The notes under the pieces are model-generated. The model did not search any database and was not told the DNA's origin. It worked only from the letters and a program-made list of their open reading frames with translations. From a virus, in IMG/VR virus record IMGVR_UViG_3300025000_000265, positions 1 to 36,495 of that record: 36,495 nt of DNA, one strand, 5' to 3'. The position numbers and the translations under genes are program-made. Each line of letters opens with the position of its first letter. The stretch's first letter is position 1. Positions 3,108-29,671 of this stretch are shown here, in pieces.

Positions 3108-3125
3108 TAATAGCATAAATAAAAT

Positions 3126-3156: not shown

Positions 3157-3174
3157 TAAAATAGAGGTGATTAT

Positions 3175-3714
3175 ATGTCAATAAAAATTATAAAAGATAA
3201 ACCTATTAAAAAGTTAAAATGTGTTGTTTGCGAAGAATTGTTTCCAAAAGATGAAACAATTATTAAAAGTAATAAAAGATATTGTAAAACTTGTTTAGAA
3301 GCAAAAGAAGAAGAATCTGCTTTATATAAAAATGATTGGGATTTACTCTTTGACTACATATGTAAGCTATATAGTATCGACAAACCAACAGGTATGATGT
3401 TTCAACAAATGAAAAACTATAGAGCAGAATATGAATATACCAATATTGGCATGTATTATACTTTGCAATACTATTATAAAATTTTAGAGAATGATGTGTT
3501 AGAGGATACCGGATTAGGAATTATCCCATATTTCTATGATAAAGCAAAGAAACACTATAGTAAGATGTTTAATCTTCAAGACTTTGCAGAAGAGTTTAAA
3601 GGAGAAGAAAAATCAGTTCAAATAAAAACCAAAATCGCTGATAAAATATCAATTCCTAAAAGCCCTTTACCATTGAATTTTGACTGGGAGGAGGAACAGG
3701 ATGAAGATAACTAA
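3175..3714 (+). CDS. Zinc-ribbon protein upstream of the replicative helicase
   Basis: 179 residues, ATG after AGAGGTGAT. Two CxxC pairs near residues 16-19 (CVVC) and 37-40 (CKTC) form an N-terminal zinc ribbon. The remaining helical, Tyr-rich region (GMYYTLQYYYKIL) ends in an acidic tail (DWEEEQDEDN). The stop codon overlaps the helicase start by 14 bases, implying translational coupling. Position suggests a helicase loader or a helicase-associated factor, but no loader motif is visible and I do not recognise the family. Confidence 0.6.
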   Translation: MSIKIIKDKPIKKLKCVVCEELFPKDETIIKSNKRYCKTCLEAKEEESALYKNDWDLLFDYICKLYSIDKPTGMMFQQMKNYRAEYEYTNIGMYYTLQYYYKILENDVLEDTGLGIIPYFYDKAKKHYSKMFNLQDFAEEFKGEEKSVQIKTKIADKISIPKSPLPLNFDWEEEQDEDN

Positions 3715-5284
3715 GAAGCAAATTGAAAAATATCATGATAAAAGAACCTCTTGTCAAGTATTAGGTTGTATAATGAAGAGTCCAAATTTATTAAAAGATA
3801 AAAAATATGCGTTACATAAAGACGATTTTCCAAATGGATTACACCAATTAATTCATACTTGTGTATATAATTTGTCTCTTCAAGGATTGAATGAAGTAAA
3901 AATAGCAGATATAGAAACATACTTAAACACAAATGATCCTAAGTCATATAAAATGATTTTTGATAATGAAAAAAATATTGAATGGTTATCTCAAATATAC
4001 GAAGATGGTAACAATACAAATTATGAATATTATTATAATAAGCTAAGAAAATTATCGCTACTAAGAAGTTATATGAATGAAGGAACAGATGTATCTGGAA
4101 TCTTAGATATGGATGAGATAGACCATATAATTATCAAGCAACAGCAAGAAAAATTCGAATCTATGACACTAAGTGAAGTTCAACAACATTTTGATAGGAA
4201 AAACTTCAACGTCAAAGAAAAGTTTTTAATAAGAGATTCAACAAAACGTAGAAAAGCTGGAGATTATGCAGATGAATTAAGAGTAAAAATGAAGGAATCC
4301 CCTTGTTATGGATATGGACTAGAAAGTAAATATTTAAATACACTTACAAGAGGAGCATTAAAAGGTGGATTTTTCCTAGAAACAAGGGATAGTGGAAAAG
4401 GCAAGACGCGCGTTGCTATAGAGAGATTGCTCTTAATATGTTGTTCACATTTATGGGATTTTGATAAAAATGATTTTGTTCCCAATCCAAATGGACAAAA
4501 TAATGTTGGATTATATATAGGAACAGAAATGAAAATCTATGAAGAATTAGAACCTATGATGTGGGCATTTGTTAGCGGAGTAGAAGAATTTAAGATTAAG
4601 AAAAATATCATGACAGAAGAAGAAGAAATCAGAGTCGATAAAGCTATTGAATATGTTAAAAATACAAAATTGTTTTTAGAAGATGAACCAAATTATGACC
4701 TAGCATACATAAGAAATACAGTAGATAGATATAAAATTAATGAAGGATTAGATGCTTTAGCTATTGATTATCTTGAATTAACTATAGCATTAACTTCTGA
4801 GTATGTTCAATTAACTAAGGGAATGACTGCCAGAGAAGATCAGGTATTATTAAGTCTTTCCTCCAATACAAAAACACTAGCAACGGATTATGATATTATT
4901 ATTTTTGGATTTACACAAACCACTGATGGAGCAAGAGTAGATGGATTTAGAGATCAAAGAGCTGTAAAAGGTGCTAGATCACTTCCCAATAAATGTGATG
5001 TAGGCATTACCGTATTTGCACCAACAAAAAAAGAACTTGATTTTATTCAACCTTTGATTCCAAAAGCAAAAGGATTAAATAAAACCATAGTGCCTAACGT
5101 ATGTTATACAGTATATAAAAATAGATTTGGAGAAATTACTGAAGAAGTTAAAATATGGTGCTATCAAAACTTAGGGAATATGAAAACTATTGATTTATTT
5201 TGTACAAATAGAGACTATGAACCAATATCAATTGATAAAACATTAATTGAATTAGAAGATAAAGTCATTGAAACGAGTGATTAA
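3701..5284 (+). CDS. DnaB-type replicative DNA helicase
   Basis: 527 residues from the ATG at 3701, which follows GGGAGGAGG at 3686-3694; the TTG at 3680 lies upstream of that ribosome binding site and is rejected. An N-terminal helical part comes first, then a RecA-like motor with Walker A RDSGKGKT (near residues 229-236) and Walker B LDALAIDYLEL. A later stretch GFTQTTDGARVDGFRDQRAVKGA is where DnaB proteins have motifs H3/H4. It unwinds the fork 5'-3' as a hexamer and would work with the primase that starts 2 bases after its stop. The P-loop carries RDSGKGKT where host DnaB proteins usually have RPSMGKT. Confidence 0.85.
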   Translation: MKITKKQIEKYHDKRTSCQVLGCIMKSPNLLKDKKYALHKDDFPNGLHQLIHTCVYNLSLQGLNEVKIADIETYLNTNDPKSYKMIFDNEKNIEWLSQIYEDGNNTNYEYYYNKLRKLSLLRSYMNEGTDVSGILDMDEIDHIIIKQQQEKFESMTLSEVQQHFDRKNFNVKEKFLIRDSTKRRKAGDYADELRVKMKESPCYGYGLESKYLNTLTRGALKGGFFLETRDSGKGKTRVAIERLLLICCSHLWDFDKNDFVPNPNGQNNVGLYIGTEMKIYEELEPMMWAFVSGVEEFKIKKNIMTEEEEIRVDKAIEYVKNTKLFLEDEPNYDLAYIRNTVDRYKINEGLDALAIDYLELTIALTSEYVQLTKGMTAREDQVLLSLSSNTKTLATDYDIIIFGFTQTTDGARVDGFRDQRAVKGARSLPNKCDVGITVFAPTKKELDFIQPLIPKAKGLNKTIVPNVCYTVYKNRFGEITEEVKIWCYQNLGNMKTIDLFCTNRDYEPISIDKTLIELEDKVIETSD

Positions 5285-5286
5285 TA

Positions 5287-6429
5287 ATGGACAGAGATGA
5301 ATTAATGGAGTTGGTGACAACAGAAGATGTTATTAGCATTTTAAATGATTTAGGTTCGGGGAGTCCTAGAAAAGACAAAAACAATGACAACGTATTACTT
5401 TTTTCAACCGTATGTCATGGAGGAAAAAGTCATAAACTTTATTACTATATAGATAGTAAGTTCTTCAAATGTTATACTTCATGTGGTTCAATGAGTCTTT
5501 TTGATTTAATTATGTCTACTAAAAATATTATTTTTCAAGAGGCATTTGCTTACCTTTGCAAGTTTAAAAACATAACTAATTTCACTAAAAAGAAAAAAGG
5601 TCTACAAAAAAAAGAAATTGAGAATGAAGATTTAAAATTTCTAAAACTCCATCTGCATAAAAAAGAAAAACAATTAGTTAAATTGCCCTCCTACAATAAG
5701 TATATATTAAATATGTTCGATGATTATATGCCTATGTCATGGTATAAGGAAGGGATCACAGATGAAATTGCTAATATTTTTCAAATAAAATTTTGTATGA
5801 ATCAATTTAAATGTATAATTCCCCATCCCGATATCAATGGAAATTTAGTAGGGATAAGGGGAAGAAATTTTCTACAATACCAAGTGAATAGTGGCAAAAA
5901 ATATATACCAATCACTATTCAAGGACTAACTTATAGATATCCAATTGCATTTAATTTGTTTGGAATATATCAAAATCAAGAAAACATAAGAAAAATAAAG
6001 AAAGCAATATTATTTGAGTCTGAAAAAGCAGTTATGCTTTACGGAAGTTATTTTGGTCAAGAAAACAACATAAGCCTTGCCCTATGTGGAATGTCATTTT
6101 CATTACATCAAAGAGATTTGTTGCTTTCATTAGGAGTAGAAGAAGTAACAATTTGTTTTGATAAACAATATCAAATAGAATTAATTGATGATGAGAATAT
6201 TGATAGAAATTCTAAAGCATGGAAAGAGTATGAGAATTACATCAAAGGATTAATAAAAATATCAGAAATGCTTATACCATATTGCAATGTTTCAATAATA
6301 GTGTGTTGGGATTTTAGAATTGGATACAAGGACTCACCGATAGATTTTGGAAAAGAAACATTTGAAGAACTATATAGAGAACGACATTACATAGATGATC
6401 TAGAAGAATTGAGAGAAATGATAAAATAA
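5287..6429 (+). CDS. DnaG-type DNA primase
   Basis: 380 residues, start 2 bases after the helicase stop. A CHC2-like zinc finger is visible (C43, H49, C62, C66, followed by SMSLFDLI, the usual sequence after this finger). A TOPRIM region follows: ILFESEKAV carries the expected Glu, then LALCGMSFSLHQRDLL corresponds to the Gly-Thr/Ser-Gln segment, and VTICFDKQYQ corresponds to the metal-binding DxD strand, here DKQ. KDSPIDFG near the end matches the KDP-type motif. It makes RNA primers for the DnaE polymerase. It is shorter than host DnaG (about 600 residues) and lacks the C-terminal helicase-binding domain, as phage primases often do. Confidence 0.85.
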   Translation: MDRDELMELVTTEDVISILNDLGSGSPRKDKNNDNVLLFSTVCHGGKSHKLYYYIDSKFFKCYTSCGSMSLFDLIMSTKNIIFQEAFAYLCKFKNITNFTKKKKGLQKKEIENEDLKFLKLHLHKKEKQLVKLPSYNKYILNMFDDYMPMSWYKEGITDEIANIFQIKFCMNQFKCIIPHPDINGNLVGIRGRNFLQYQVNSGKKYIPITIQGLTYRYPIAFNLFGIYQNQENIRKIKKAILFESEKAVMLYGSYFGQENNISLALCGMSFSLHQRDLLLSLGVEEVTICFDKQYQIELIDDENIDRNSKAWKEYENYIKGLIKISEMLIPYCNVSIIVCWDFRIGYKDSPIDFGKETFEELYRERHYIDDLEELREMIK

Positions 6430-6435
6430 AGGGAG

Positions 6436-8247
6436 ATGTTTATTATAAAATACAAGGTGTTAAATCGAGGTTACGATTTAATTAGTGAAAATGAACTGTT
6501 AGATATTTTATTGAAAAATAGAGGTGTGGAAAATCCAAAAAAAATGCTAAATGTAAGTGAATCTTCCGTACATGATGGAATGTTATTTAAAAATATGGAT
6601 AGAGGATTAGATATGCTTCATTGGCACATTGAAAATAATAGTAAAATACATATTATAGTTGATGTGGACGTTGATGGCACTACATCAGGCACAATAATTG
6701 ATAATTATATCTTGAATATTAATCCAAATATCATAATTACACATTCTATGAACGAAAAGAAAGTGCATGGAATTGTAGTGAAAAGTCTTGAAGAATATGA
6801 TTTCAATTTATTGATTGTACCAGATGCAGGTTCTTCAGATGTTAAACAATGTAAAGAGTTAGTGGAAACAAGAGACGTAGATATACTAATTTTGGATCAT
6901 CACGAAATAGAAGAAATTAATCCTTATGCAGTAGTTATTAATTGCCAAGATGGTCAATATCCCAATATTACATTGTCTGGTGCAGGAGTAGTTTATAAAT
7001 TTATTAAAGAATATGATAAAAAATTTGGATTTAATTTTGCTGAAAATAATTTAGATTTAGTAGCAATAGGCATGATAGCAGACTCTATGGACTTGAGAAA
7101 TTATGAAACACGATATTTAGCAATAGAAGGTTTAAAAAAGATAAATAATGAATTTATGAAACAATTTCTAGTAAAAAATAAGGTTATTGAAGGAGAGAAT
7201 ATTAACTTTTCATTCGTTGGATGGAAGATTGCACCTTTTGTTAATGCAGTTACAAGAATAGGCAATGCTGAAGAAAGAAAAGATTTAATAAATGCATTCT
7301 TAGGCAAAGAAGAGAAAAAAGAATATCAACCAAGAAGAAAATGCAAGACAGATCCTAAACCAGAAATAATAATACAAACCTTGCAAGAGTGCATGATTCG
7401 GGAAACTACTAATATTAAAGCCAGACAAGATAAATTAGTCAAAAAATCAATGGAAGATTTGGTAGAAATAATTGAATCGCAGAAATTAAATAATAATAAA
7501 ATAATTATAGTTAATGCTACTGATATATTAGAAAAATCCTTTTCGGGGTTAGTTGCTAACAAGTTGGCGAGTATTTATAAACGTCCGATAATTATCTTAA
7601 AACAAATGCATAAAGACGAATTAAAAAATAAAGAACAGGAATTAATATTTGGAGGAAGTTTTAGAAGTTATGACCTATTCCCTGTAGAATCCTTTATGGA
7701 TGTATTGAGAGAAATTGATACTTTTATTATGTTAGGAGGTCATCCCAATGCCGGAGGGTTTAAGATTAAAGAAAGTAAAATTCAAGATACACAAAATAAA
7801 TTAAATGAAATGTTTAAAGATGTAAATATAGAAGATGTTTATATGGTAGATTATGAAATCCCTATTGGAAGATTAAAAGAAAAACATATTCTTCAAGTAG
7901 GTCAATGGGCAGATATTTGGGGAAATACATTGAAGAAACCAATTTTTGCTATTACAGATGTGTCGCTCAAAGTAGAAGATATTCAATTAATAGGAGATAA
8001 AAGAAATTTGATTAGATTTGAAAAAACAATAGGGAATAATAAAATAGTATTTATTAAAAAGTTTGCAGGTGAAAATCTGTACAATGAAATGATTATGAAA
8101 AATCATAAAGGATTATCTAAGAAAAACAATAAAGTTAAATTAGATATTATTGGAGAATTTTCAATTAATAAATGGAATGGAATGGAATTCCCTCAAATCG
8201 AAGTAATTGCATTCAATGCAAGTAAGGAAAAAGATTTTAAGTTTTAA
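6436..8247 (+). CDS. RecJ-like DHH/DHHA1 single-strand exonuclease
   Basis: About 600 residues. DHH motifs are in order: VDVDVDGTTSG (Asp 76, 78, 80, numbered from the ATG at 6436), LILDHHE (Asp154-His-His), LVAIGMIADSMDL, and the DHHA1 signature GGHPNAGGF near residue 435. A C-terminal OB-like region follows. RecJ degrades ssDNA 5'-3' in repair and recombination. The start is unusual: AAAGGGAG (6428-6435) abuts the ATG at 6436, whereas ATA at 6445 lies 9 bases away and would give the natural-looking MKYKVLNRGYDL. See the ATA/ATT finding. The next gene has its own promoter. Confidence 0.85.
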   Translation: MFIIKYKVLNRGYDLISENELLDILLKNRGVENPKKMLNVSESSVHDGMLFKNMDRGLDMLHWHIENNSKIHIIVDVDVDGTTSGTIIDNYILNINPNIIITHSMNEKKVHGIVVKSLEEYDFNLLIVPDAGSSDVKQCKELVETRDVDILILDHHEIEEINPYAVVINCQDGQYPNITLSGAGVVYKFIKEYDKKFGFNFAENNLDLVAIGMIADSMDLRNYETRYLAIEGLKKINNEFMKQFLVKNKVIEGENINFSFVGWKIAPFVNAVTRIGNAEERKDLINAFLGKEEKKEYQPRRKCKTDPKPEIIIQTLQECMIRETTNIKARQDKLVKKSMEDLVEIIESQKLNNNKIIIVNATDILEKSFSGLVANKLASIYKRPIIILKQMHKDELKNKEQELIFGGSFRSYDLFPVESFMDVLREIDTFIMLGGHPNAGGFKIKESKIQDTQNKLNEMFKDVNIEDVYMVDYEIPIGRLKEKHILQVGQWADIWGNTLKKPIFAITDVSLKVEDIQLIGDKRNLIRFEKTIGNNKIVFIKKFAGENLYNEMIMKNHKGLSKKNNKVKLDIIGEFSINKWNGMEFPQIEVIAFNASKEKDFKF

Positions 8248-8250
8248 ATA

Positions 8251-8279
8251 TTGAAATAAATAATATTATGTGATACAAT
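8251..8279 (+). promoter_or_regulatory. Sigma-A promoter before the HNH gene
   Basis: TTGAAA (8251-8256), 17-bp spacer, TACAAT (8274-8279). It lies directly behind the RecJ stop and ahead of the HNH endonuclease and polymerase genes. Confidence 0.65.
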
Positions 8280-8300
8280 AAAGGAGAGATAAAATTAACA

Positions 8301-8954
8301 ATGATACCAATAAATATTGAGGGGAAAAGATTTGGGAAACTAGTAGCTATTTCTTTGGTTCCAGAAAGGAAGAGTGGTAGAAAAACGAGAGAGTGGTTAT
8401 TTCAATGTGACTGTGGTAATAAAATAGTAATAGAACAAAGGGCTGTTAATGGGAAAGCACGCATACAGCAAAGTTGTGGTTGTATTAGAGAAAAAGCCCA
8501 TCTAGTAGCAACAACTAAAATACCTATAGAATTTGAATATGTAGATAAATTTGATGATTTTAAAAAATATGCTTTCTTACATAAGGCGTTTGTGCATTGT
8601 AACCCAACAAACCAAGATATAATATTTTACAAACAGTTCATTGAGAAGTTTTACATAGATAAGCAATTTAATTTAATTTATCTGTATTGGATTAAAGAGA
8701 ATAAAATAAATTCAAATAATACCTTTTATAATTGGTATAAACCTTCAGTCGATCATATTGTGCCAAAATCCAAAGGTGGTACACAAGAAATAAATAATTA
8801 TCAATTTTTAACACTATTCGAAAATTTAGGGAAAAGAGATATGACTATGGACGAATGGGTAGTGTTTCTTCAAGAGACAAATACTAAATCTGATTTATTT
8901 ATAGACAGCATAATAAAGAAGGAAGAGGAGGAATTAGATATTGCTACAGGATAG
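8301..8954 (+). CDS. Free-standing HNH homing endonuclease
   Basis: 217 residues. The N-terminus has a zinc/DNA-binding unit: GKRFGKLVAI, then CDCGN (C36, C38) and SCGCIRE (C59, C61). The HNH core is PSVDHIVPKSKGG (Asp151-His152) followed by NNYQFLTLFEN, with the Asn typical of HNH motif 3. Such genes move by cutting cognate alleles lacking them. It sits between recJ and dnaE and its stop overlaps the polymerase start by 14 bases, so it has inserted without breaking either gene and carries the ribosome binding site of dnaE in its own 3' end. The ATG is 14 bases from AAAGGAG, rather far. Confidence 0.8.
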   Translation: MIPINIEGKRFGKLVAISLVPERKSGRKTREWLFQCDCGNKIVIEQRAVNGKARIQQSCGCIREKAHLVATTKIPIEFEYVDKFDDFKKYAFLHKAFVHCNPTNQDIIFYKQFIEKFYIDKQFNLIYLYWIKENKINSNNTFYNWYKPSVDHIVPKSKGGTQEINNYQFLTLFENLGKRDMTMDEWVVFLQETNTKSDLFIDSIIKKEEEELDIATG

Positions 8955-11900
8955 TGATTTTGTTCATTTACACACTCATACAGAATATAGCAACACCCGT
9001 TTTCGCGATGCCATAAATAAAGTCAAAGATATGATTCTATATGTTGCTGAACTAGGAAATATGGCAATGGCAGTAACCGAGCATGAATCTGTTAGTTCTC
9101 ACATTAAATTTTTAAATACAGTAAAGGAATTAAAATCTAAAGATAAGATACATAGAGATTTTAAGCCAATTCTAGGGAATGAAATATATTTAGTTGATGA
9201 AGAAATAATGTATGAAGAAACGAAGGATCAAAATAAAAAACCTAAATTCTATCATTTTTTAATTTTAGCCAAGGATAATGAAGGTCATGAGCAAATGAGA
9301 GAACTATCCACTAGAGCATGGACGAGATTATTCAGCTATAAAGGTGTTGAAAGAGTTCCTACTTTCTATAGTGATATAGAATCAATTTTAGGAGAAAATA
9401 AAGGGCATTTGATAGCATCAAGTGCCTGTCTTGGAGGAATGTTACCACACTTGATTTTGAGTCTATTACAAGAAGAAAATGAAGAGATTCAAGAACAAAT
9501 AAAAGATGAATTGGATGACTTTTTAAATTGGTGTCTTGATTTATTTGGAGAAGATTTCTACATCGAACTCCAACCCTCTTTACAACAGGAACAAATAGAC
9601 TTCAATAAAATGGCGGTAAAAGTAGCAAAGGCTTACAATATAAAATGGATAGTGACAACCGATGCACATTATTTAACAGCAAAAGATAGAGAAATTCATA
9701 AAGCATTCTTAACTTCAGAAGATGATTTAAACAATAATCGTGAAGTAGATATGTTTTATAGCACAACTCATTTTTTTACAGTGGATGAGATATTTAAGAA
9801 TATGGATTATTTAGAAATTGAGGATATTGAAAAAGCAATATTAAATACTAAAGAAATTGCTGATAAAGTTGTAGGATATGATTTCTTTGCTGAATCTATT
9901 ATTCCTTTGAGGGAATTACCTGAAAAATCAGAGTGGTATCCAGTTAATCAAAAAATATTAAGTAATTATCCATATATAAAAGAACTTTATGAAGATATTG
10001 AGAGTCAGCATACTTTCTTAATTACTCAAACATTTAAAGGAATAGAAGAAAGAGGAATCAAAAAAGAAAAATTAGACGATGTATTAGAAAGAGTTAATAT
10101 TGAATGTAAAGAAATCACAGGAGCAAGCAAGGCTAAACATCAACCAATGGGAGCATATCTAAATACTATGCAAAAAAATGTAGATATTATTTGGGAAGAA
10201 GCTGAATCATTTGTTGGGCCAGGAAGGGGATCTGCTAATGGATATATTATCAATTATCTATTAGGCATTACTCAAGTAAATCCATTAGAACAAGGTGTTG
10301 AAATGCCTCATTGGAGATTTATGAGTGCAGAGAGGCCGGACATTTTTGATATTGATATAGATTATAGTTCTCATAAAAAAGATGTAGTAATGGATAAAGT
10401 AGTAAAATATTATCAAAGCATTGGTGGAGATGCGATAAGGGTATGCACCTTTGGAACAGAAACATCTAAATCAGCTATTCAAACAGCTTGCAGAGGATTA
10501 CATATCAACAATGATGTTGCATTATATCTAAGTTCTTTAGTACCTGTAGAAAGAGGAAAAGTGTGGAGCATTCATGATTGTTTCTATGGAGATCCAGACA
10601 ATGGAAGAAAAGCAGTAACCGAATTTAGAAATATGGTAAGCGAGTATACGGATAAAAATTTACTAAATGTCATTCTAGGAATTGAAGGATTGATTAATAA
10701 AAGATCAACCCACGCTTGCGGAATTTTGATACTCAATGAACCAATCACAAAACATAATTCAGTAATGAGAAGTCCAAGTGGAGAATTAATATCTGCATAT
10801 GAATTACACGATTCAGAACAAGTATCAAATTTAAAATATGACTTCTTAAATACCAAAACAGAATCAATGCTTCAATTAACAATGGAGATGCTAGTTAAAA
10901 ATAACAAAATTGAATGGCAAGGAAGTTTGAGAAAAACATATAATAAATATCTACATCCAGACGTTATAGATTTCAAATCAAAAGAAATGTGGGATATTTT
11001 GTGTAGAGGTGAATTACTCTCTTGTTTCCAATTTGAATCGTCAGTCGGGGAGCAAGCAATTAAATTAATTCAACCGCAAAATTTAATTGATGCTTCTAAC
11101 GGAAATACAGTTATGAGGTTAATGGTGGAAAATGGAGAACAACCATTAGAGAAATTCGTTAGATATAAAAATAATATTTCTGAATGGTATAAGGACATGA
11201 AAAAGTTCGGATTAAATGAAGAACAAATTAACATAATGGAAAGACATTTGCTTCAAGATAATGGAGTATGTTCAAGCCAAGAGCGAATGATGCTTTTAAC
11301 TATGGATAGCGATGTTGCAGGATTTGGAGTAATAGAGAGTAATAAATTGAGAAAAGGCGTAGCTAAAAAACAACAAAAACTAATTGATGATGCTAAAACA
11401 CTGTTTTTTGAATGGGGAGAAAAAGCTAATGCTCCTAAAATTTTATTAGAATATATTTGGAATGAACAAATAGCCTTACAGTTGGGATATTCATTTTCCA
11501 TACTTCATGCCGTGGCGTATACAATTATTCTCATTCAGCAATTGAATTTGGTTTATTACTATCCCCCTATCTATTGGAATACAGCAGTTTTAATGGTGGA
11601 ATCAGGAGCAGTTGATAGAGAAACCTGTGATGATTCCGATATTGAAGCAAAAGAAAGAACCACCAATTATGGAGAAATTGCAAAAGCAATCGGCAAATTA
11701 CAAGCAAAAAAAATCAATATATCGTTGCCTTATGTAAATAAAGCAGAACAAGGATTTTTACCCAATGAAGAAAACAATGAAATTATTTTTGGATTCAAAG
11801 GAATTATGAAAATCAACAACGAAACAGCACAAACTATAATGCAAAATAGACCATATGCAAATTTAGAAGATTTTCATAATAGATTAGTTTTGGTAAAAAA

Positions 11901-13020
11901 AGAGGTGACTTTAAAAACTGGCAAAACACAAATGAGGTCTTTAGTAGCAGAAGGTCAAACAATAATGCTAATTAAGGCAGGAGCATTTGATAAAATTGAA
12001 AATAAACCAAGAGAAGAAATATTGGAAAACTATTTACGACTATTAAATCCTTCAAAACAAAAATTAAACTCTAAAGATATCTCTAAAATTGCAGAAATGG
12101 GAATTATACCTTCTAATTTAAAAGATGAAATAAAATTTTACAATTTTAGAGAATATTTAATGAGTATGCCAAAGCAAAAAGATGAGCAAACAAAAACCAT
12201 TACTTGGCACAAAATACACGATCAATTCAACGAAGAGGACACCGAATATGCAAATAATTTCTTTTTGGAGAATTTTGCTAATGAAATGGAGGAAAACAAA
12301 GATTATAAATATGATGAAGAAGGATATTTATTAATAGCGTTGGGAACCCCACGTAAGGGATCTTTTGAATCTATTTATAAAAATAAAATTGCTCAATTAA
12401 ATAAATGGATAAATACAGAAGAATGCATATACACATATACGAATAATATTTTTCAAAATATTAAAAATGAGAATATGCAGGGGAATATTAGTTCTTGGGA
12501 AATGGCAAGCATGAGTTTTTATAGCAAGGAAGCTGGACATGAACTTGCAGACATTGATCAAGAAAAATATGGAGTAGTAGATTTTAATAATTTACCTGAA
12601 GAACCTGTAGTAATCGGATTCACTAAATACAAAGGATTACAATATCCCAAATTTCAATTAAATAGAATTGTAGGGACTGTATTAGATAGAGACAAAAATA
12701 AACACTCAGTAACTATATTAACACCTACTGGGGTTGTAACATTAAAATTTTATGCAGGTCAATTCTCTTTCTATGATAAAACCATATCTAAAGATGTAGG
12801 AATAGCAGATGAGAATGGTAAAATCAAAAAAGTAGTATTGGAAAATGGATGGTTTTCTAGAGGTAGTTTGATCATGGTCACGGGATTCAGAAGAGGAGAT
12901 ATCTTTAAACCAAAAAGATACAAAAACAGTATTTATCAACATGCTCTATCTAAAATTGTAGAAGTCAGAGAAGACAATGAATTAATTCTTCAAAATGATA
13001 GAGTACAATTAGTGGAATAA
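8941..13020 (+). CDS. dnaE: DNA polymerase III alpha subunit, DnaE type with PHP domain
   Basis: 1359 residues. TTG start at 8941, 9 bases after GGAGG at 8927-8931. An N-terminal PHP domain begins FVHLHTHTEYSN (His 9, 11, 13) and has later ILGNEIYL and TTDAHYL metal-ligand segments. The palm has FVGPGRGSANG at about 425-435, and PDIFDIDIDY at 466-475 supplies catalytic Asp residues. STHACGILI and KYDFLNTKTESM follow, and fingers and beta-binding regions extend to about residue 1000. A C-terminal OB-like domain includes VIGFTKYKG. No exonuclease domain is inserted, so it is DnaE and not PolC. The PHP His pattern looks intact, so proofreading or pyrophosphatase activity there is possible. It would be the element's own replicative polymerase. 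No intein is seen. Confidence 0.93.
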   Translation: MLQDSDFVHLHTHTEYSNTRFRDAINKVKDMILYVAELGNMAMAVTEHESVSSHIKFLNTVKELKSKDKIHRDFKPILGNEIYLVDEEIMYEETKDQNKKPKFYHFLILAKDNEGHEQMRELSTRAWTRLFSYKGVERVPTFYSDIESILGENKGHLIASSACLGGMLPHLILSLLQEENEEIQEQIKDELDDFLNWCLDLFGEDFYIELQPSLQQEQIDFNKMAVKVAKAYNIKWIVTTDAHYLTAKDREIHKAFLTSEDDLNNNREVDMFYSTTHFFTVDEIFKNMDYLEIEDIEKAILNTKEIADKVVGYDFFAESIIPLRELPEKSEWYPVNQKILSNYPYIKELYEDIESQHTFLITQTFKGIEERGIKKEKLDDVLERVNIECKEITGASKAKHQPMGAYLNTMQKNVDIIWEEAESFVGPGRGSANGYIINYLLGITQVNPLEQGVEMPHWRFMSAERPDIFDIDIDYSSHKKDVVMDKVVKYYQSIGGDAIRVCTFGTETSKSAIQTACRGLHINNDVALYLSSLVPVERGKVWSIHDCFYGDPDNGRKAVTEFRNMVSEYTDKNLLNVILGIEGLINKRSTHACGILILNEPITKHNSVMRSPSGELISAYELHDSEQVSNLKYDFLNTKTESMLQLTMEMLVKNNKIEWQGSLRKTYNKYLHPDVIDFKSKEMWDILCRGELLSCFQFESSVGEQAIKLIQPQNLIDASNGNTVMRLMVENGEQPLEKFVRYKNNISEWYKDMKKFGLNEEQINIMERHLLQDNGVCSSQERMMLLTMDSDVAGFGVIESNKLRKGVAKKQQKLIDDAKTLFFEWGEKANAPKILLEYIWNEQIALQLGYSFSILHAVAYTIILIQQLNLVYYYPPIYWNTAVLMVESGAVDRETCDDSDIEAKERTTNYGEIAKAIGKLQAKKINISLPYVNKAEQGFLPNEENNEIIFGFKGIMKINNETAQTIMQNRPYANLEDFHNRLVLVKKEVTLKTGKTQMRSLVAEGQTIMLIKAGAFDKIENKPREEILENYLRLLNPSKQKLNSKDISKIAEMGIIPSNLKDEIKFYNFREYLMSMPKQKDEQTKTITWHKIHDQFNEEDTEYANNFFLENFANEMEENKDYKYDEEGYLLIALGTPRKGSFESIYKNKIAQLNKWINTEECIYTYTNNIFQNIKNENMQGNISSWEMASMSFYSKEAGHELADIDQEKYGVVDFNNLPEEPVVIGFTKYKGLQYPKFQLNRIVGTVLDRDKNKHSVTILTPTGVVTLKFYAGQFSFYDKTISKDVGIADENGKIKKVVLENGWFSRGSLIMVTGFRRGDIFKPKRYKNSIYQHALSKIVEVREDNELILQNDRVQLVE

Positions 13021-13038
13021 ATTAAAGGAGTGATACAT

Positions 13039-15312
13039 TTGGAAGAAGATTATGAAGATATATTAGTAAAGTGTAAAGTCCGTTTATCAAAACAAATGTT
13101 TCCTAAAGACAAGATAATCGGTAGTGGAGATTTCGGTATAATCTCTGCTACTGTATTAGATGTTTTGCAAGGCGAACCTCAAACAAATAAATGGGGGACT
13201 ATTACATTAACTGGAAATATGTGTGAAATTAACGATGATGAAATCTATATTGTAACAGGCAAAGAGGTTGACAATGAAAAGTTTGGATTGCAATATCAAG
13301 TATTATTTATGTGTACAGATATAAAATTAACCAATAAATCTGATCAGTATAAATTTTTAGAAAAAATACTTCCTGAAAAACAATGTGTAGATATATTCAA
13401 AGCATTTGAAAATCCAATGGAAATATTAGAGAATAAAGACGTTAAGGCGTTATGCACCATTAAAGGAATTGCCGTTCCTACAGCATTAAAGCTAATAGAA
13501 AAGTATGAAAATGGTAAAGATTATTCTGAAGCATATGTTGAATTAGATAAATATGGTTTAACCAAACATATGATTGATAAATTAGTTGATTATTTTGGAA
13601 GTCCTAATACAGTCATTTCTAAAATCAATGAAAATCCATACTTATTAATTGATGAAGTGGATGGAATAGGATGGGAAACAGCAGATGAAATGGCATTAGA
13701 AGGAGGATTGGGAGAATACTCAATCAACAGAATTAAAGCATATGTTAAATACTATCTTTATGAAGAAGCAAACATAGGCAATACATGGGTAGATATTGAT
13801 GATTTATTAGATGCTGTTGATGGATCAATTAGTGCTGATTTACCACAAGAAATTTTATCTGAAGCATTGAAAGAAATGAATGATAAGAAAATAATATGGA
13901 CTAATGAAGATAAAGACAGAGTAGGATTGATGAAATATTTCAAATTAGAAAAAAATATTGCTGAAGAACTCCATAGATTAAACTCAGTTGAAAATACATT
14001 TGGGATTGGTGATTGGAAAACAAAGATTAAAGGGTTAGAAGAGAGACAAGGTTGGGAATTTACAGATGAACAAATTGAAGGTATTCAAGCAATATTAGAA
14101 TATCAAGTTGTAGCAATAATTGGTGGGGCAGGTGTGGGCAAGAGCAGTACTGTAGCAGGAATGTTAGAAGTATTTAAGGATAATTATACTTTTGCTCAAA
14201 CAGCTTTGTCAGGTAGAGCTTCTTGTAATTTGAGTGATATTACTGGTGAAGATGGATACACAATACATAGATTGCTTGGGTATAATCCTAAAATTGGTTT
14301 TGTTTATAATAAAAGCAATAAACTGCCTAAAGATATTATTATCTTAGATGAGTGGTCTATGGTGGGAGCAGATATTTATTATAAATTAATTCAAGCTATC
14401 GAATCGGGATCTAAACTAATTATGCTAGGAGATGAACATCAATTAGAGGCCATTGGAGTAGGAAATGTGATGTTCGATATGATAGAGAGTGGTTATATTA
14501 AAGTAGTGAAATTAACACAGATACATAGGCAAGCAGAAAAATCAGCCATAGTTACAGAGAGTATAAAGATAAAGGACAAAAAGCAAATAATTGATAAAAA
14601 TTTTATTGGTAAAGAAATTAGAGGGGAGTTGCAAGATTTTGAATTAGACATTTACACAAATAAAGATACTACTCCTAAAAGAGTTGTAGCACACTTCAAA
14701 GAACTATTGCCAAAAACAGATGATATTTTTGATATTCAAGTAATAGTTCCAATGAAAAATAGAGGAAAAGCAAGTGCCTATTATCTCAATAATTTACTAC
14801 AAGATATTGCAATTGATACAAATGTTAGTACAAAATTACTAATTGGAGAAGGTTCAAAATATCCTTTTACTATTTTTATTGGAGATAAAGTATTAAACAA
14901 TAAAAATAACTATGAAGCATTAAATGAGAATGGTGATGAAGTTCCCATTTTCAATGGTGATTTAGGAATAGTCGTAGGTATGGATATTCATAGGAGAACA
15001 TTGGTTGTCAATTTCAATAATAAAGGCAATATATACATTCCTAAAGCCCATTTGAAACATATTGCTCTCGGATATGCAGGAACTTGCCATAAGATGCAGG
15101 GATCGGGAATCAAATATGTGATCGCAGCCTTGGATTATACTCATTATAAATTACTTACGAAAGAAATGGTATATACTATGCAAACTAGAGCAAAGGAATA
15201 TTGTGTATTATGTGCGGAAAATAAGGCATTAAGATATGCAACTACTCATACTAGTGTATCGACTAAGCAAACTCATTTACAACAGTTGCTTATGGATTAT
15301 ACAAAAAAATAA
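13039..15312 (+). CDS. RecD2-like superfamily 1 DNA helicase
   Basis: 757 residues from TTG at 13039, 8 bases after AAAGGAG (13024-13030); the GTG at 13030 overlaps that site and is rejected. An N-terminal beta-rich region is followed by helix-hairpin-helix repeats (TIKGIAVPTALKLIEKY; DEVDGIGWETADEMA). The SF1B motor comes next: Walker A GGAGVGKS at 362-369, motif II IILDEWSM, motif III GDEHQLEAIG, motif IV-type LTQIHRQ, and C-terminal GTCHKMQGSGIKYV. This order is RecD2, a 5'-3' helicase. It ends the replication operon and probably assists fork repair or recombination. Confidence 0.9.
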   Translation: MEEDYEDILVKCKVRLSKQMFPKDKIIGSGDFGIISATVLDVLQGEPQTNKWGTITLTGNMCEINDDEIYIVTGKEVDNEKFGLQYQVLFMCTDIKLTNKSDQYKFLEKILPEKQCVDIFKAFENPMEILENKDVKALCTIKGIAVPTALKLIEKYENGKDYSEAYVELDKYGLTKHMIDKLVDYFGSPNTVISKINENPYLLIDEVDGIGWETADEMALEGGLGEYSINRIKAYVKYYLYEEANIGNTWVDIDDLLDAVDGSISADLPQEILSEALKEMNDKKIIWTNEDKDRVGLMKYFKLEKNIAEELHRLNSVENTFGIGDWKTKIKGLEERQGWEFTDEQIEGIQAILEYQVVAIIGGAGVGKSSTVAGMLEVFKDNYTFAQTALSGRASCNLSDITGEDGYTIHRLLGYNPKIGFVYNKSNKLPKDIIILDEWSMVGADIYYKLIQAIESGSKLIMLGDEHQLEAIGVGNVMFDMIESGYIKVVKLTQIHRQAEKSAIVTESIKIKDKKQIIDKNFIGKEIRGELQDFELDIYTNKDTTPKRVVAHFKELLPKTDDIFDIQVIVPMKNRGKASAYYLNNLLQDIAIDTNVSTKLLIGEGSKYPFTIFIGDKVLNNKNNYEALNENGDEVPIFNGDLGIVVGMDIHRRTLVVNFNNKGNIYIPKAHLKHIALGYAGTCHKMQGSGIKYVIAALDYTHYKLLTKEMVYTMQTRAKEYCVLCAENKALRYATTHTSVSTKQTHLQQLLMDYTKK

Positions 15313-17203: not shown

Positions 17204-19789
17204 TTGACTAAAATGAACGACAATGTAGAAAAACTTTTAGAAAAAAGATACTATTTAAGAGATAATGATGATAAATTTATTGAACACTCTTGGTCTGATA
17301 TATCTAAAAGAATAGCAACAAGTATTGCTCAAGCTGAAAATGAAAAGGATATTCCTTATTACATAAAACAATTTTATAATAAAATCAAAGATATGGAATT
17401 TATTCCTTCTAGTCCTTGTATTTTTAATGCTGGAACTCCATCACAATCTTTAAGTTCTTGTTTTGTAGTAGATATTGAAGATAATATTGAAGGTATTTTT
17501 TCTACAGTAGCAGAATGTGCAAAGATTTTTCAAATGTCAGGTGGAGCAGGATTCTCCATGAGAAAGATTCGTCCTAAAGGTTCATTATGTAAGTCATCTG
17601 GTTCTAATGCTTCAGGAGTATGTTCTTTCATGCATGTTTTTAATGAAGTTGTAAACAGAGTAAAACAAGGAAATAAAAGAAATGGTGCATTAAAAATTGA
17701 TTTGCCTTGTGATCATCCCGAAATTTTTGATTTCATTCACTCGAAGGATGATACAGAAGATTTGAAAAATATGAATATCTCTGTTAGTATTACAGATGAA
17801 TTTGTTGAAGCAGTAGAAAACAATGAGGATTGGAATTTAAAATTTAATGGATTAGTATATCAAACAATTAAAGCAATTGATCTGTGGAATGAAATTATGT
17901 TGTGTGCATGGAAAACAGGAGAACCCGGCTTGAGTTACCAGTCGAATATGGACGCAGGGAATATGAATCCCCAATTATATCCAACAGTATACGGAAATCC
18001 TTGCTTTACCTCAGACATGAGATTATTAACAGTGGATGGCTATAAAACATTTGAAGAATTGGCAGAAAAAGAAGTTAAAGTTATTAATTCGAACGGTGAT
18101 ATATCTGATGGTAATGTTTGGTACAGTGGAGAAAAAGACGTTGTTGAATTGACATTAAGCAATGATAGAAAAATTAAATGCACCCCTAATCATATTTTTA
18201 TGTTAAGCAACGGAGGTAAATGTGAAGCAGAAAACACATTAAATAAAAGTTTATTAGCTTTTCAAGCTATAAACCCAACTGTAATATCAATTGTTGATTT
18301 AGGAAAACAAAAAGTTTATGATTTCTCAGAGCCATTAACTCATTGGGGAATAGTAGAAGGTTTAGTAGTCCACAACTGTCATGAATATGTTAATATTCCC
18401 TATTCAAGTTGTAACTTAGCATCCGTAAACCTCAAAAGGGTAATTGATAAAGGAAAAGTAAATTGGTCTAAACTAAAAGAAAATATTGAATTAACTTTCA
18501 GATTCCTAGATGATATGATTACAATGAATAAACTTCCTCTTGAGAAAATAAAAACAATTACACACTTAATTAGACCAATTGGATTAGGTACAATGGGTTT
18601 TGCTCAATTGCTTTACGAACTAAAAATACCTTATAACTCTCAAAAATGCTTAGATTTTGTTGATGAATTGTACGGTTTTATTAAGAAAACATGTTTAGAT
18701 TATAATATAAAACTAGGAAAAGAAAGAGGAATATATCCTGCTTGGAAAGGTAGTAAATGGGAAGAAGAAAATCTTAAAGTTAGATGTTCTAGTATGACAA
18801 GTATTGCTCCTAATGGAAGTATTGCATTTATAGCTGACACAACAGGAGGAATTGAACCTCAATTTGCTTTGGTCTATAAGCGTAGGGATAAAGAAAATGA
18901 TGAATATATGGTTGCGGATAGCGTCTTTGAAAATTATCTAAAAGAGAACAACTTATACACAAAGGAAATACTAGATAAAATTAATGAAAATAAGGGATCT
19001 ATTAAAGGTTTAGATGATATTTTCACACAAGAAATTCAAGATATATTTGTAACTGCTAATGATATTTCTCCTGAATGGCATGTGAAAGTATTGGCACAAA
19101 TTCAAAAATACATATGCTTAAGTATTAGCAAAACTGTGAATTTGCCAAATGATGCAACTGTTGAAGATGTAGGAAATGTGTATCTAATGGCAGCAAAGAA
19201 TGGAATCAAGGGTGTGACCGTATATCGCGATGGTTGTAGAGCTAATCAAGTATTAAGTGTTGGAGAAACAGAAGAAATAGAAATTTCCAAACAAGATTTT
19301 ATTGTTCCTGCTGAAACATTAAAATATGCACATGCAGAAAGATTTAAAGTGTCTAGTGGTTGTGGTAGTTTTTGGTTATTCTTATGTTACGATGACGAAG
19401 GAAATCTTAGAGAAATATTCTCTCAATCAGCAACACAAGGAGGATGTCAGGGACTAACAGAAGCATTATCAAGAATGACTTCATTGGCACTTAAATCAAA
19501 TATTCATCCTGAAGTAATTATTGATCAACTTAAATCTGTTAGATGCCCAGTAAGCATGATGATGAGAAAAGAGAAAGGATTGGATTCTAGATCATGTGCT
19601 GATGCAATTGGAAATGCTATTAGAGACTTTATTAAGGGTAAAGATTTAAAAGTAGCAATAGTAAAAGAGACTAAAGTGATTCAAATTGAAAATCAAGATT
19701 CAACCAAGTGCCCTGAATGTGGTCATGAACTAGGTATGACAGAGGGTTGTCGAACGTGTCCTAATTGCTTTTATAGCAAGTGTTCCTAA
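17204..19789 (+). CDS. nrdJ: Adenosylcobalamin-dependent (class II) ribonucleotide reductase with in-frame mini-intein
   Basis: 861 residues as precursor, about 736 after splicing. TTG start at 17204 after TTGGAGG. Class II features: PSSPCIFNAGTP and LSSCFVVDI (first active-site Cys), GGAGFSMRKIRPKG, then the NPCHE motif carrying the thiyl-radical Cys and its Asn/Glu partners, IPYSSCNLASVNL, and SIAPNGSIAFIADTTGGIEP. A C-terminal zinc-ribbon tail (CPECGHELGMTEGCRTC...SKC) is typical of NrdJ. It reduces ribonucleotides to deoxyribonucleotides using B12, without oxygen and without a separate activator. Residues 267-391 are an intein inserted immediately before the Cys of NPCHE, so the unspliced enzyme cannot be active. 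It supplies dNTPs for the element's replisome. Confidence 0.92.
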   Translation: MTKMNDNVEKLLEKRYYLRDNDDKFIEHSWSDISKRIATSIAQAENEKDIPYYIKQFYNKIKDMEFIPSSPCIFNAGTPSQSLSSCFVVDIEDNIEGIFSTVAECAKIFQMSGGAGFSMRKIRPKGSLCKSSGSNASGVCSFMHVFNEVVNRVKQGNKRNGALKIDLPCDHPEIFDFIHSKDDTEDLKNMNISVSITDEFVEAVENNEDWNLKFNGLVYQTIKAIDLWNEIMLCAWKTGEPGLSYQSNMDAGNMNPQLYPTVYGNPCFTSDMRLLTVDGYKTFEELAEKEVKVINSNGDISDGNVWYSGEKDVVELTLSNDRKIKCTPNHIFMLSNGGKCEAENTLNKSLLAFQAINPTVISIVDLGKQKVYDFSEPLTHWGIVEGLVVHNCHEYVNIPYSSCNLASVNLKRVIDKGKVNWSKLKENIELTFRFLDDMITMNKLPLEKIKTITHLIRPIGLGTMGFAQLLYELKIPYNSQKCLDFVDELYGFIKKTCLDYNIKLGKERGIYPAWKGSKWEEENLKVRCSSMTSIAPNGSIAFIADTTGGIEPQFALVYKRRDKENDEYMVADSVFENYLKENNLYTKEILDKINENKGSIKGLDDIFTQEIQDIFVTANDISPEWHVKVLAQIQKYICLSISKTVNLPNDATVEDVGNVYLMAAKNGIKGVTVYRDGCRANQVLSVGETEEIEISKQDFIVPAETLKYAHAERFKVSSGCGSFWLFLCYDDEGNLREIFSQSATQGGCQGLTEALSRMTSLALKSNIHPEVIIDQLKSVRCPVSMMMRKEKGLDSRSCADAIGNAIRDFIKGKDLKVAIVKETKVIQIENQDSTKCPECGHELGMTEGCRTCPNCFYSKCS
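18002..18376 (+). other. 125-residue mini-intein in NrdJ (RIR1-type insertion at the catalytic Cys)
   Basis: The intein begins with Cys1 (CFTSDMRLLTVDGY, block A) and has block B as KIKCTPNHIFML (Thr and His of TxxH). It ends with block F (VYDFSEPLTHWGIVEG) and block G LVVHN, followed by extein Cys+1. Flanks are YGNP and CHEYVNI, which join to a normal NPCxE reductase motif. No LAGLIDADG or HNH endonuclease and no obvious linker insertion lie between blocks B and F, so it is a splicing-only intein. All four catalytic positions (C1, block B T/H, penultimate H, terminal N, C+1) are present, so splicing is expected. Confidence 0.9.
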
Positions 19790-24725: not shown

Positions 24726-24824
24726 GTGGATAAAGATACTAAAGTTTCATGTACAGATTGTATCAATTGGAATGAATTAAAAGAGAAACTGATAGGAGTT
24801 GAATTAATGATTGATAATAAATAA
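24726..24824 (+). CDS. Short Cys-pair peptide, truncated relative of the 26549 gene
   Basis: 32 residues, GTG start after AAAGGATGTGGAG. The core VSCTDCINWNELKEK matches VCKDCIH-EFAKMN in the gene at 26549, but this copy ends after about 30 residues. The homing endonuclease gene starts inside its last codons (overlap 24811-24824). I infer that the insertion of that gene replaced its 3' half. Family function unknown, probably zinc binding. Confidence 0.5.
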   Translation: MDKDTKVSCTDCINWNELKEKLIGVELMIDNK

Positions 24825-26529
24825 AGTTGCAATTACAAAATGGAGTTCAAATAATAAAAAATGGTATGAATCAAAAGGACATATATTTACAAAATATAAA
24901 GATGAATTTGAAGTTAAAGTCGAAGATTTATCCGATGGTTCAAATGTTTTCGTAAATATAAAATGTGATGGTGACTATTGTAATAAACCTATAATAAATT
25001 TAAAATGGTTCTATTATAAAAGGAGTACTAGTAAAAACAATGGTAAATACTACTGCCAAAAATGTGCAGTTAATATTAAAAATAATAACATTAGATTATC
25101 TTTTAAACAATGGTGTTATTATAAATTAACTAAAGAATTAGCCGATTGGATTTTATCAAGGTGGGATTATGAGTTAAATATTGATAAGGATGGTAATGTA
25201 ATTCGACCTGAAGATATAGATTTTAATTCCCGTGGTTTAAATGGGAAAGGATATTGGTTTAATTGTTTAAATTATCCAGAACATAAATCAGAGCAAAAAA
25301 GCATTATCAATTCTATAAGACATGATCTTAGTAAAAATTTTATTTATTGTGATCAATGCAATAAAATAATAATTACTCATCCGGAATTAGTAAAATATTT
25401 AACCAATAAGGAAGACGCTTCAAAATATTCTATTGCAGAAAGAAAATTACCTATTAAATGTCTCGATTGCGGATATGAAAAAGAGAGTGCGATGTATGAT
25501 TTAATAAGAAACGGAGTTTGTTGTCCCAAATGTTCAGATGGAGGTTCATATCCAGAAAAGTTTTTGTTCGGATTTTTAGAGCAATTATTAAATAAGGATT
25601 TTATAGTTCAATTAAATAAAACTACTTTAAAATGGTGTGGTAGTTATAAATATGATAACTATATAGAAAAAATTAATTGCATAATTGAAACTCATGGAAT
25701 TCAACATTATGAAGAAGTAAAAAGTAATTGGAGGTCATTAACAGAAACGCAGAATAGTGATTTTGATAAAGAGTGGTTAGCTAGAAGTAATAATATTAAA
25801 AATTACATAATATTGGATTGTAGAAGGTCTGATATTAAATGGATTAGGCATAGCATTATGAATTCTGATTTACCACAATTACTTAATTTTAAAGAAGAAG
25901 ATATTGATTGGTTAAAATGTCATGAAATAGGATTAAAAAGTTTAGTTAAAGTTTCTTGTGATTTATGGAATAACGGGTTAGATATTATTAAAATATCTGT
26001 AAAATTAAAAAAGAGTTCTGCGACAATTAGAAGATATTTAGAACAAGGAAAAAAATTAGAATGGTGTGATTACAATGGACAGAAAGAATTTATGAAAAAC
26101 GCTAAAAAAATTAGAAGACAAATAATTTGTTTAAATACAGGTGAAATATTCAATTATATAAATGAGGCAAACAAACGATATAATACTACAAGTATTTCAC
26201 AATGCTGTAAAGGAGTATATAAATCCTCTGGAGTGCATCCACACACAGGAGAAAATCTTATATGGATGTATTATGATGAATTTATAATTAAAAACAAAAT
26301 TTTAGGTTGGAAAGATACATATATGAAAAATATTTTTGATTATTATAAGGTAATTTGCTTGACTACTGGAGAAATATTTGAATCATTAAAAGAGGCAGGT
26401 GATAAATATAATATCAATCGTATTTATACCATTTTAAATTACCAAGACTTAAAGTATACAGGAATACATCCAGAAACCGGAGAGAAATTAAGATGGATGC
26501 TTTACAGAGTATATAAATCTCAAATATAA
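24811..26529 (+). CDS. Homing endonuclease, EDxHD/VSR-like nuclease with NUMOD1 repeats
   Basis: 572 residues, TTG start 12 bases after AGGAG. The N-terminal third has zinc-ribbon pairs (CDGDYCNK, CQKCAV, CDQCNK, CLDCGY, CPKCSDGG). Then PEKFLFGFLEQLL and INCIIETHGIQHYEE (about residues 289-303) resemble the E-x-H-G-x-Q-H-Y core of the EDxHD family, whose known member I-Bth0305I comes from a Bacillus thuringiensis phage. A helix-turn-helix-like part (DIIKISVKLKKSSATIRRYL) follows. Two C-terminal NUMOD1 repeats begin QIICLNTGEIF and KVICLTTGEIF and each ends with HPxTGExLxWM. These bind the target DNA. The gene lies between two copies of a Cys-rich gene. The nuclease family call is inferred from motif shape; the NUMOD1 call is firm. 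Confidence 0.75.
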   Translation: MIINKVAITKWSSNNKKWYESKGHIFTKYKDEFEVKVEDLSDGSNVFVNIKCDGDYCNKPIINLKWFYYKRSTSKNNGKYYCQKCAVNIKNNNIRLSFKQWCYYKLTKELADWILSRWDYELNIDKDGNVIRPEDIDFNSRGLNGKGYWFNCLNYPEHKSEQKSIINSIRHDLSKNFIYCDQCNKIIITHPELVKYLTNKEDASKYSIAERKLPIKCLDCGYEKESAMYDLIRNGVCCPKCSDGGSYPEKFLFGFLEQLLNKDFIVQLNKTTLKWCGSYKYDNYIEKINCIIETHGIQHYEEVKSNWRSLTETQNSDFDKEWLARSNNIKNYIILDCRRSDIKWIRHSIMNSDLPQLLNFKEEDIDWLKCHEIGLKSLVKVSCDLWNNGLDIIKISVKLKKSSATIRRYLEQGKKLEWCDYNGQKEFMKNAKKIRRQIICLNTGEIFNYINEANKRYNTTSISQCCKGVYKSSGVHPHTGENLIWMYYDEFIIKNKILGWKDTYMKNIFDYYKVICLTTGEIFESLKEAGDKYNINRIYTILNYQDLKYTGIHPETGEKLRWMLYRVYKSQI

Positions 26530-28381: not shown

Positions 28382-29128
28382 ATGCAAGTAACATTATTAA
28401 ATCCAGATCAAATTAAAAACATCTTTAAATCATGGGGAGAATTCGCAGCTACTTGCTACGATACACCACAAGAACTTGCTGAAAAAGTAGGGAATTCATG
28501 CTATCAAGATGAACATTATAGTGGTAGTAGAACTGAATTTATTAAGTTCAAAATTGAAGGTGTGGATAGAGGCGTGAGCGAGCAAGCTATGCGTCATGAA
28601 ATTGGTGTTAGATATAATTTTATTGACGATAATACATATGATGAAAATCCAATGAATATTGTGAAAAATCTTAAATCTTTTAGATATGTTGATATGGAGA
28701 ATTTTGATTATACAATTCCTAAAACAATTGAAAGTATTCCTAAAGCATTAAATAAATATAATAAATTAATGGAGTATATAAATACAGAAAGAATTCAAAT
28801 TAAAGATATTCTGGTGCAGAATGATATCAATGAAAAACAAGCAATAGAAGATGCAAATTATTCTCTACCAAGAGCTACAAATACTTCACTTGTTATTGCT
28901 TTTACATTAGAAGCATTTATTCATTATCTACACAAAAGATTATGTACAAGAACACAATATTTTCATAGGCAAATAGCAAATCTTATGAAGGATGAAGTAT
29001 TGAAATTATTACCTCAAGTAAAAGATAGGTTGGTTGCTCAATGTGAATACCTTTTATGGTGTCCTGAGAAAAATAGGTGCTGTGGAAAATATCCGACTAA
29101 AGAAATGTTATTGAAAGGAGAGAAATAA
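28382..29128 (+). CDS. ThyX-like flavin-dependent thymidylate synthase, motif degenerate
   Basis: 248 residues, ATG after AGAGAGGA. Overall ThyX layout: RGVSEQAMRHEIGVRYNF (63-80) at the position of the ThyX signature, then a long insertion, then NTSLVIAFTLEAFIHYLHKR and RTQYFHRQIANLM, matching the Arg-x-x-x-Gln-x-x-x-Arg helix that binds dUMP. The signature itself is poor: Arg-His-Glu instead of Arg-His-Arg, with no following Ser. A Cys-rich C-terminus (CEYLLWCPEKNRCCGKYP) is added. ThyX makes dTMP from dUMP with FAD and folate. Its place beside dNMP kinase and nucleotidase genes fits nucleotide synthesis, but the altered site means activity is uncertain. Confidence 0.7.
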   Translation: MQVTLLNPDQIKNIFKSWGEFAATCYDTPQELAEKVGNSCYQDEHYSGSRTEFIKFKIEGVDRGVSEQAMRHEIGVRYNFIDDNTYDENPMNIVKNLKSFRYVDMENFDYTIPKTIESIPKALNKYNKLMEYINTERIQIKDILVQNDINEKQAIEDANYSLPRATNTSLVIAFTLEAFIHYLHKRLCTRTQYFHRQIANLMKDEVLKLLPQVKDRLVAQCEYLLWCPEKNRCCGKYPTKEMLLKGEK

Positions 29129-29131
29129 ATA

Positions 29132-29671
29132 ATGCCAATCATTATACCGATTTCAGGAAAAGCAGAATCTGGCAAGGACTTTACTGCTATGCTTCTTAAA
29201 ATAGAATTACAAAAGCAAAATAAAAGAGTATTAATCATAAATTACGCTGATCAACTAAAATTTATTTGTCAAAAATATTTTAATTGGAATGGTGAAAAAG
29301 ATGTCAAAGGAAGAGAACTATTACAAAAAATTGGAACTGAAAAAGTAAGGGCAAAAAATAATAATTATTGGGTAGATAATGTAATTGAATTAGTTAAGGT
29401 TTTTGAGGATGATTATGATTATGTCCTTATTCCAGACACACGATTTTCCAATGAGATAGAAAGATTAGATAATGATTTTCTTTTTGTGTCATTAAGAATT
29501 GAAAGACTTAATCATGAAAATAAACTTACTCCAGAACAAAGATCGCATATATCAGAAACAGCATTGGATAATTATAATTTTGATTATTACATAAAATGTG
29601 AAACTAAAGAAGAAAAAGAACAAGAAGTTATTAAATTTGTAGAATATTTAAAGGAGAGATTTAATGTCTAA
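29132..29671 (+). CDS. Deoxynucleoside monophosphate kinase, phage type
   Basis: 179 residues, ATG after AAAGGAG. P-loop GKAESGKD (9-16) and early strand IIIPIS; RVLIINYADQLK carries the base-side segment; VLIPDTRFSNEIERL follows; HISETALD near residue 134 matches the lid sequence of phage dNMP kinases (T4 gp1 relatives). It phosphorylates dNMPs to dNDPs. Overlaps the nucleotidase gene by 8 bases, implying coupled synthesis. Confidence 0.8.
   Translation: MPIIIPISGKAESGKDFTAMLLKIELQKQNKRVLIINYADQLKFICQKYFNWNGEKDVKGRELLQKIGTEKVRAKNNNYWVDNVIELVKVFEDDYDYVLIPDTRFSNEIERLDNDFLFVSLRIERLNHENKLTPEQRSHISETALDNYNFDYYIKCETKEEKEQEVIKFVEYLKERFNV

Follow-up and report, generated by a model that had tools for sequence, protein, structure and literature searches.

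Inteins in the ribonucleotide reductase (RNR) genes of phages have been the subject of an earlier survey (PMC3653736), and mycobacteriophages have been proposed as intein incubators (PMC5050341). Mini-inteins are held to move mainly vertically or together with their host gene (PMC4071816), and the question has been raised of how full-length inteins come to be precisely reduced to mini-inteins (PMC1508164). The described systems closest to the intein reported here include the "intein-containing RnR" of the isolated Nodularia phages vB_NspS-kac65/68 and vB_NpeS-2AV2, the NrdJ-1 split intein (PDB 8ubs), the archaeal RIR1 inteins, such as Mth RIR1 (134 aa), and gp41-1 (PDB 6qaz, 6riz). NrdJ-1 is inserted one codon later than the present intein (NPC^SEI, the caret marking the junction), the RIR1 inteins have Pro at position -1, and gp41-1 is split in nature and cyanophage-like. 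A 2025 description ranks the last of these, with 125 aa, as the smallest intein, and its extein has Ser at position +1 (PMC12245125).

The window analyzed here is the whole 36,495-nucleotide stretch of the IMG/VR virus record IMGVR_UViG_3300025000_000265. A single open frame on the plus strand (17204-19789, 861 aa) runs through the intein (Table 1). The encoded protein scored 532 bits against the TIGR02504 NrdJ_Z model (cut-off 400), an RNR barrel profile spanned residues 84-674 and matched both sides of the insert, and the best matches among solved structures were to the B12-dependent RNR 1xjk/1xje. These matches identify the host gene product as NrdJ, a B12-dependent RNR of class II, here encoded by a phage. 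The start codon is TTG, although an ATG three codons downstream may be used instead, so that the ligated exteins would be expected to comprise 736 or 733 aa, respectively. Elsewhere in the window, a replication module (2076-15312) encodes a Sak4-like annealase, a DnaB-like helicase, a primase, RecJ, a PolIII alpha-type polymerase and a RecD2 helicase, and ThyX and a dNMP kinase are encoded beyond it (28382-29671).

Table 1. Features of the interrupted nrdJ gene in the window (L008 and L002 are relatives discussed in the text)
Feature	Coordinates	Strand	Remarks
N-extein of NrdJ	17204..18001	+	266 aa from TTG, ends ...VYGNP
Class 1 mini-intein	18002..18376	+	125 residues in frame, C1 to N125, CFTSDM...VVHN
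Intein codons 1-49, block A side	18002..18148	+	80% nucleotide identity to L008 intein
Intein codons 44-99	18131..18298	+	assigned by triplet test to an L002-like mini-intein donor
Intein codons 99-125, blocks F and G	18296..18376	+	93% amino acid identity to L008
C-extein of NrdJ	18377..19786	+	470 aa, first residue the catalytic Cys (C+1); NPCHE once spliced

The insert matched the intein N-terminal model TIGR01445 with 41.1 bits (cut-off 24.5; E 2.7e-10), and a match to the Pfam Intein_splicing model (E 1.3e-8) fell slightly below that model's own cut-off. The residues of the intein blocks could be read directly in the sequence (C1, T61-P-N-H64, D107, H114, H124-N125 and C+1), blocks F and G taking the form KVYDF...THWG and H124-N125 followed by Cys+1, whose codon at 18377 lies directly after the insert. 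Residues C1, T61 and H64 were unchanged across 15 mini-intein relatives. The junctions are exact, because two close NrdJ relatives that lack the insert have an uninterrupted sequence here: GNP^CME in L047, whose exteins are 70% identical, and GNP^CSE in L050, with 50% identity; a further relative, L061, also has an empty site. Chance is ruled out by the existence of eight members of 125 aa and one of 126 aa, together with pairwise dN/dS values of ~0.07-0.13 between close 125-aa copies, which indicate purifying selection. Split inteins consist of two separately encoded halves, while the window intein lies in one frame. The 125 residues are classified from their sequence as a class 1 mini-intein, placed at NP^C so that the radical Cys follows it immediately: in the alignment, Cys+1 falls on residue 322 of 1xjk, the catalytic cysteine of that enzyme. 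The original prediction of a 125-residue mini-intein with blocks A, B, F and G and all splicing residues, inserted directly before the thiyl-radical Cys, was borne out in each of these respects, as were its boundaries by the comparison with intein-free NrdJ homologs.

A structural model of the window intein, built by AF2 with the 15 mini-intein relatives, had a pLDDT of 97.8 over all 125 residues and represents a complete HINT fold, which the intein is predicted to adopt in full. The best structural matches included the NpuDnaE (4kl5) and NpuDnaB (4o1r) inteins (Z 19.9 and 19.5; 125 and 124 residues aligned; rmsd 1.5-1.6), with all 125 residues and an rmsd of 1.5 in the case of NpuDnaE. Both differ from the window intein in being longer, in residing in other host genes and in sharing only 23-25% identity with it. 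Comparison with gp41-1, which is likewise phage-type, adopts the HINT fold and ends in His124-Asn125, gave Z scores of 18.3-18.8 over 122 aligned residues, at only 16-18% identity; unlike gp41-1, the window intein is contiguous, lies inside NrdJ and has Cys at +1. NrdJ-1 shares the host gene type and the fold (Z 18.7, 21% identity), but is split and longer, and there was no significant match at the level of single sequences. Mth RIR1 is also small and located in an RNR, but it is archaeal and 9 aa longer. The Nodularia phage intein (L041) belongs to the same family and occupies the same NP^C junction, with 44% identity over residues 1-87; its 336 aa include an endonuclease-type insert which the window form does not have. 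The model PRK08332, for B12-dependent RNRs, matched weakly across the intein region of L008, the sister NrdJ of the window. The window intein stands out by its size and by what it indicates about how endonuclease-free inteins may spread.

With respect to size, the window intein had been suggested to be among the smallest; it in fact ties gp41-1 as the smallest reported (PMC12245125), and does so in one piece, although it is not unique at 125 aa. Seven relatives (L002-L006, L019 and L020) are of the same length, L007 has 126 aa, and six more mini-inteins have 129 to 133 aa. No natural intein shorter than 125 aa was found in the literature searched. A contiguous natural intein of 125 aa could serve as a splicing tool with Cys+1 chemistry.

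More than 40 relatives were detected at the same phage RNR junction in scans of viral contigs, with 41-66% identity in the splicing domain among those located at NP^C or one codon on. Most are of ~311-336 aa and carry an insert after residue ~88, which was of the LAGLIDADG type in all three relatives examined with Pfam. Matches restricted to residues 1-87 were considered as possible split inteins, a reading rejected for L008-L018, in which a long insert (endonuclease-type where tested) separates the two halves within one frame. A search for a cellular origin yielded only two weak matches in cellular genome contigs and none in plasmids, and the family is essentially phage-borne in the collections scanned. 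In seven members (L023, L025, L034, L035, L037, L042 and L044), the intein comes after rather than before the catalytic Cys, as NPC^S or NPC^C, starting at 4001, or at 3392 in L035, the register having slid by one residue. Two others are possible intermediates between homing and mini-inteins, to judge from their sequences: L028 (250 aa, intein from 4001), in which the endonuclease is partly deleted and seemingly decaying, and the degenerate L040 (324 aa, intein from 4001), in which both LAGLIDADG-like motifs are lost.

Additional insertions were observed in related genes. The RNR gene of the L002/L003/L005 type in L057 (2235-3500), L058 and L059 (3228-3500) is interrupted right after NPCG, in one case by an insert with a 321-aa ORF and in another by ~270 nt without an ORF. 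As in group I introns, T is the last base of the 5' exon and G that of the insert; an Rfam search of the insert in L057/L059 gave no match. An intron and an intein apparently coincide at the catalytic Cys in this gene. Some intein-carrying RNR genes apparently hold a second intein, ahead of CIFNAGT in the N-extein of L048 and downstream in the C-extein of L013 and L017/L018, and the long-frame RNR genes of L069 (~3501), L073 and L081 carry other, unrelated-looking inserts near the site or elsewhere. The family represents a natural series at one codon junction, comprising empty, endonuclease-bearing, decaying, mini- and intron-like states.

The window intein had been described as lacking an endonuclease, and a search with PF14528 detected no LAGLIDADG endonuclease in the 125 residues or anywhere in the record. 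Two free-standing ORFs (24811-26529 and 8301-8954, both on the plus strand) matched HNH/homing-endonuclease families in PHROGs (phrog_559/9084 and phrog_374, endonuclease VII-like), with weak or no support from Pfam. An endonuclease acting in trans from within the window was rejected, the LAGLIDADG type being absent and nothing linking the two HNH-like ORFs to the site. The sister NrdJ, L008, with exteins 93% identical in amino acid sequence, contains a 320-aa intein with a LAGLIDADG_3 domain (E 1.8e-9), and L048 and L049 likewise hold long inteins. Given the endonuclease version in so close a sister, the endonuclease was lost in the window lineage.

The seven other 125-aa relatives reside in two further RNR families, with extein identities of 37-38% and 16-19%, while the inteins themselves are 61-66% identical to that of the window. 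A branch of the intein tree (83/67, not starred) separated all eight 125-aa forms from the remainder, and the seven from the two other RNR families were firmly joined (97/87). The extein tree, in contrast, rejected the carriers of 125-aa inteins as one clade (dlnL 916, p-AU 4.7e-10). Simple vertical descent consequently fails, since these inteins sit in non-orthologous RNRs whose exteins do not form a clade. Of the two routes first offered for persistence, vertical descent or a lost nuclease, the second is supported by L008 and the first, in its simple form, is contradicted by the tree conflict. A clade of the 125-aa forms plus L007 was disfavored (dlnL 30, p-AU 0.076), so the 126-aa form probably represents a separate core. 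The exteins of the window and of the other-family carriers share only ~30% nucleotide identity and the endonuclease is absent, leaving the intein as the only strong DNA homology between carriers.

The similarity of the window intein to that of L008 is uneven along its length. Nucleotide identity was 83-84% in the flanking exteins, 80% in codons 1-49 and 83% in codons 99-125, but codons 67-91 were only 53% identical (0/300 permutations), a drop of which part need not reflect recombination, the core beside the endonuclease site being more variable in many pairs. In L008, the endonuclease is positioned after about codon 88 of the window intein. A tree of the ends only grouped the window with L008/L049 (91/83), whereas one of the middle only grouped it with L002/L003/L005 (92/85). 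A triplet test of the arrangement L008-L002-L008 delimited codons 44-99 (p = 0.0006, the best of nine donors), with 13 versus 38 sites inside the segment and 32 versus 13 outside; one control triplet out of eight gave p 0.02. The window core, for which no exact donor was found, matches the L002/L004-type cores in sequence and length (LNKxLxA(F/Y)xxxx PTVISI), unlike that of L008. Taken at the sequence level, these data are suggestive of a mosaic intein, with ends from its own NrdJ lineage and a core from mini-inteins of another RNR family.

A second pair appears to exhibit a core swap far more clearly than the window and L008. L007 carries the 126-aa mini-intein and L009 one of 324 aa with an endonuclease; their nucleotide identity is 95% in the exteins and 90-91% in the intein ends, but only 47-61% in codons 50-98. 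The two phage genomes are mosaics of blocks of 100% and ~93% identity. In the N-extein of the mini-intein RNR, an insert of ~900 bp with an HNH-like ORF of 192 aa is located at L007:2534-3433; identity is 100% to its left and ~91-93% to its right, such that one block edge lies exactly at the insertion of this ORF, ~570 bases upstream of the mini-intein.

The main rival to core exchange is parallel deletion with fast local change, in which the endonuclease was deleted in place from an L008-like intein and the neighboring residues then changed rapidly, the other 125-aa copies having arisen by parallel deletions or by an earlier transfer of the parent. Such residues might, tentatively, have been freed from contact with the endonuclease. 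The location of the changed region, flanking the endonuclease site and variable in many pairs, agrees with this account, as do the stepwise endonuclease decay in L028 and L040 and the deletions at nearly the same point in fungal PRP8 inteins (PMC1508164); AU tests of the ends alone (p 0.21) and the middle alone (p 0.15), involving few columns, were both non-significant and are compatible with it. It does not account for a window core that shares both sequence and length with the L002/L004-type cores rather than with L008, and the divergence of the L007/L009 core amid neighbors of 90-95% identity is too great for deletion plus drift. We regard deletion in place as possible but rather unlikely, and from the sequences, it is most likely that the window lineage lost its endonuclease by other means than a clean local deletion.

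A regulatory switch, in which the junction cysteines would make splicing, and with it dNTP synthesis, sensitive to redox state, is very improbable. In its favor, redox-trapped inteins are known in general, Cys1 and Cys+1 both occupy their places, and a functional enzyme would require splicing at the radical Cys; against it, class 1 inteins ordinarily have Cys at both junctions, and the sequences showed no conserved CxxC or partner Cys, position -1 being Pro and the window intein having Tyr (Y41) where several relatives have Cys. Occupancy of the site is patchy, with empty sites in close relatives (L047, L050 and L061), which fits a selfish element, persisting because its precise removal is hard, better than a conserved switch. 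Still less credible is a dead intein within an nrdJ pseudogene. In some inteins, Pro at -1 makes for a slow N-terminal junction, and it may slow splicing here, but NP^C members of the family carry this Pro natively, and the 861 open codons, the full set of catalytic residues, the confident model and the purifying selection on close 125-aa copies all argue against inactivity. A reading of the 125 residues as a domain native to NrdJ can be dismissed almost entirely, in view of the empty-site orthologues, the intein profiles, the HINT fold and the barrel profile on both sides.

The data taken together point, with good though not complete confidence, to a class 1 mini-intein that splices in cis within a phage NrdJ and most likely lost its endonuclease by core exchange. 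By homology, Cys1 would take over the acyl group of Pro(-1), which would then be attacked by Cys+1, also the thiyl-radical Cys of NrdJ; Asn125 would cyclize with the assistance of His124, and the exteins would join to restore NPCHE, the enzyme presumably remaining inactive until the intein is spliced out. Across many RNRs, the family targets this single codon junction, and a LAGLIDADG homing endonuclease follows residue ~88 in most of its members. During phage co-infection, homologous recombination within inteins resident at the same junction probably swapped an endonuclease-bearing core for the 125-aa mini-intein core of another RNR gene, with the ends retained; both the exchange and its direction are inferred. 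The window encodes a Sak4-like annealing protein, and recombination in phages with annealing proteins would be a sufficient route for such an exchange.

Whether mini-intein cores spread more generally between non-orthologous phage RNR genes, through recombination inside resident inteins at the same codon, is a proposition with moderate support, on which the sequence comparisons leave us evenly divided. If true, homing inteins could be turned into mini-inteins in a single step, and mini-inteins could spread by a route beyond vertical descent or transfer with the host gene. Core exchange would then answer part of the question of how full-length inteins are reduced to minis (PMC1508164), and would bear on the view that mini-inteins move mainly by descent or with their host genes (PMC4071816).
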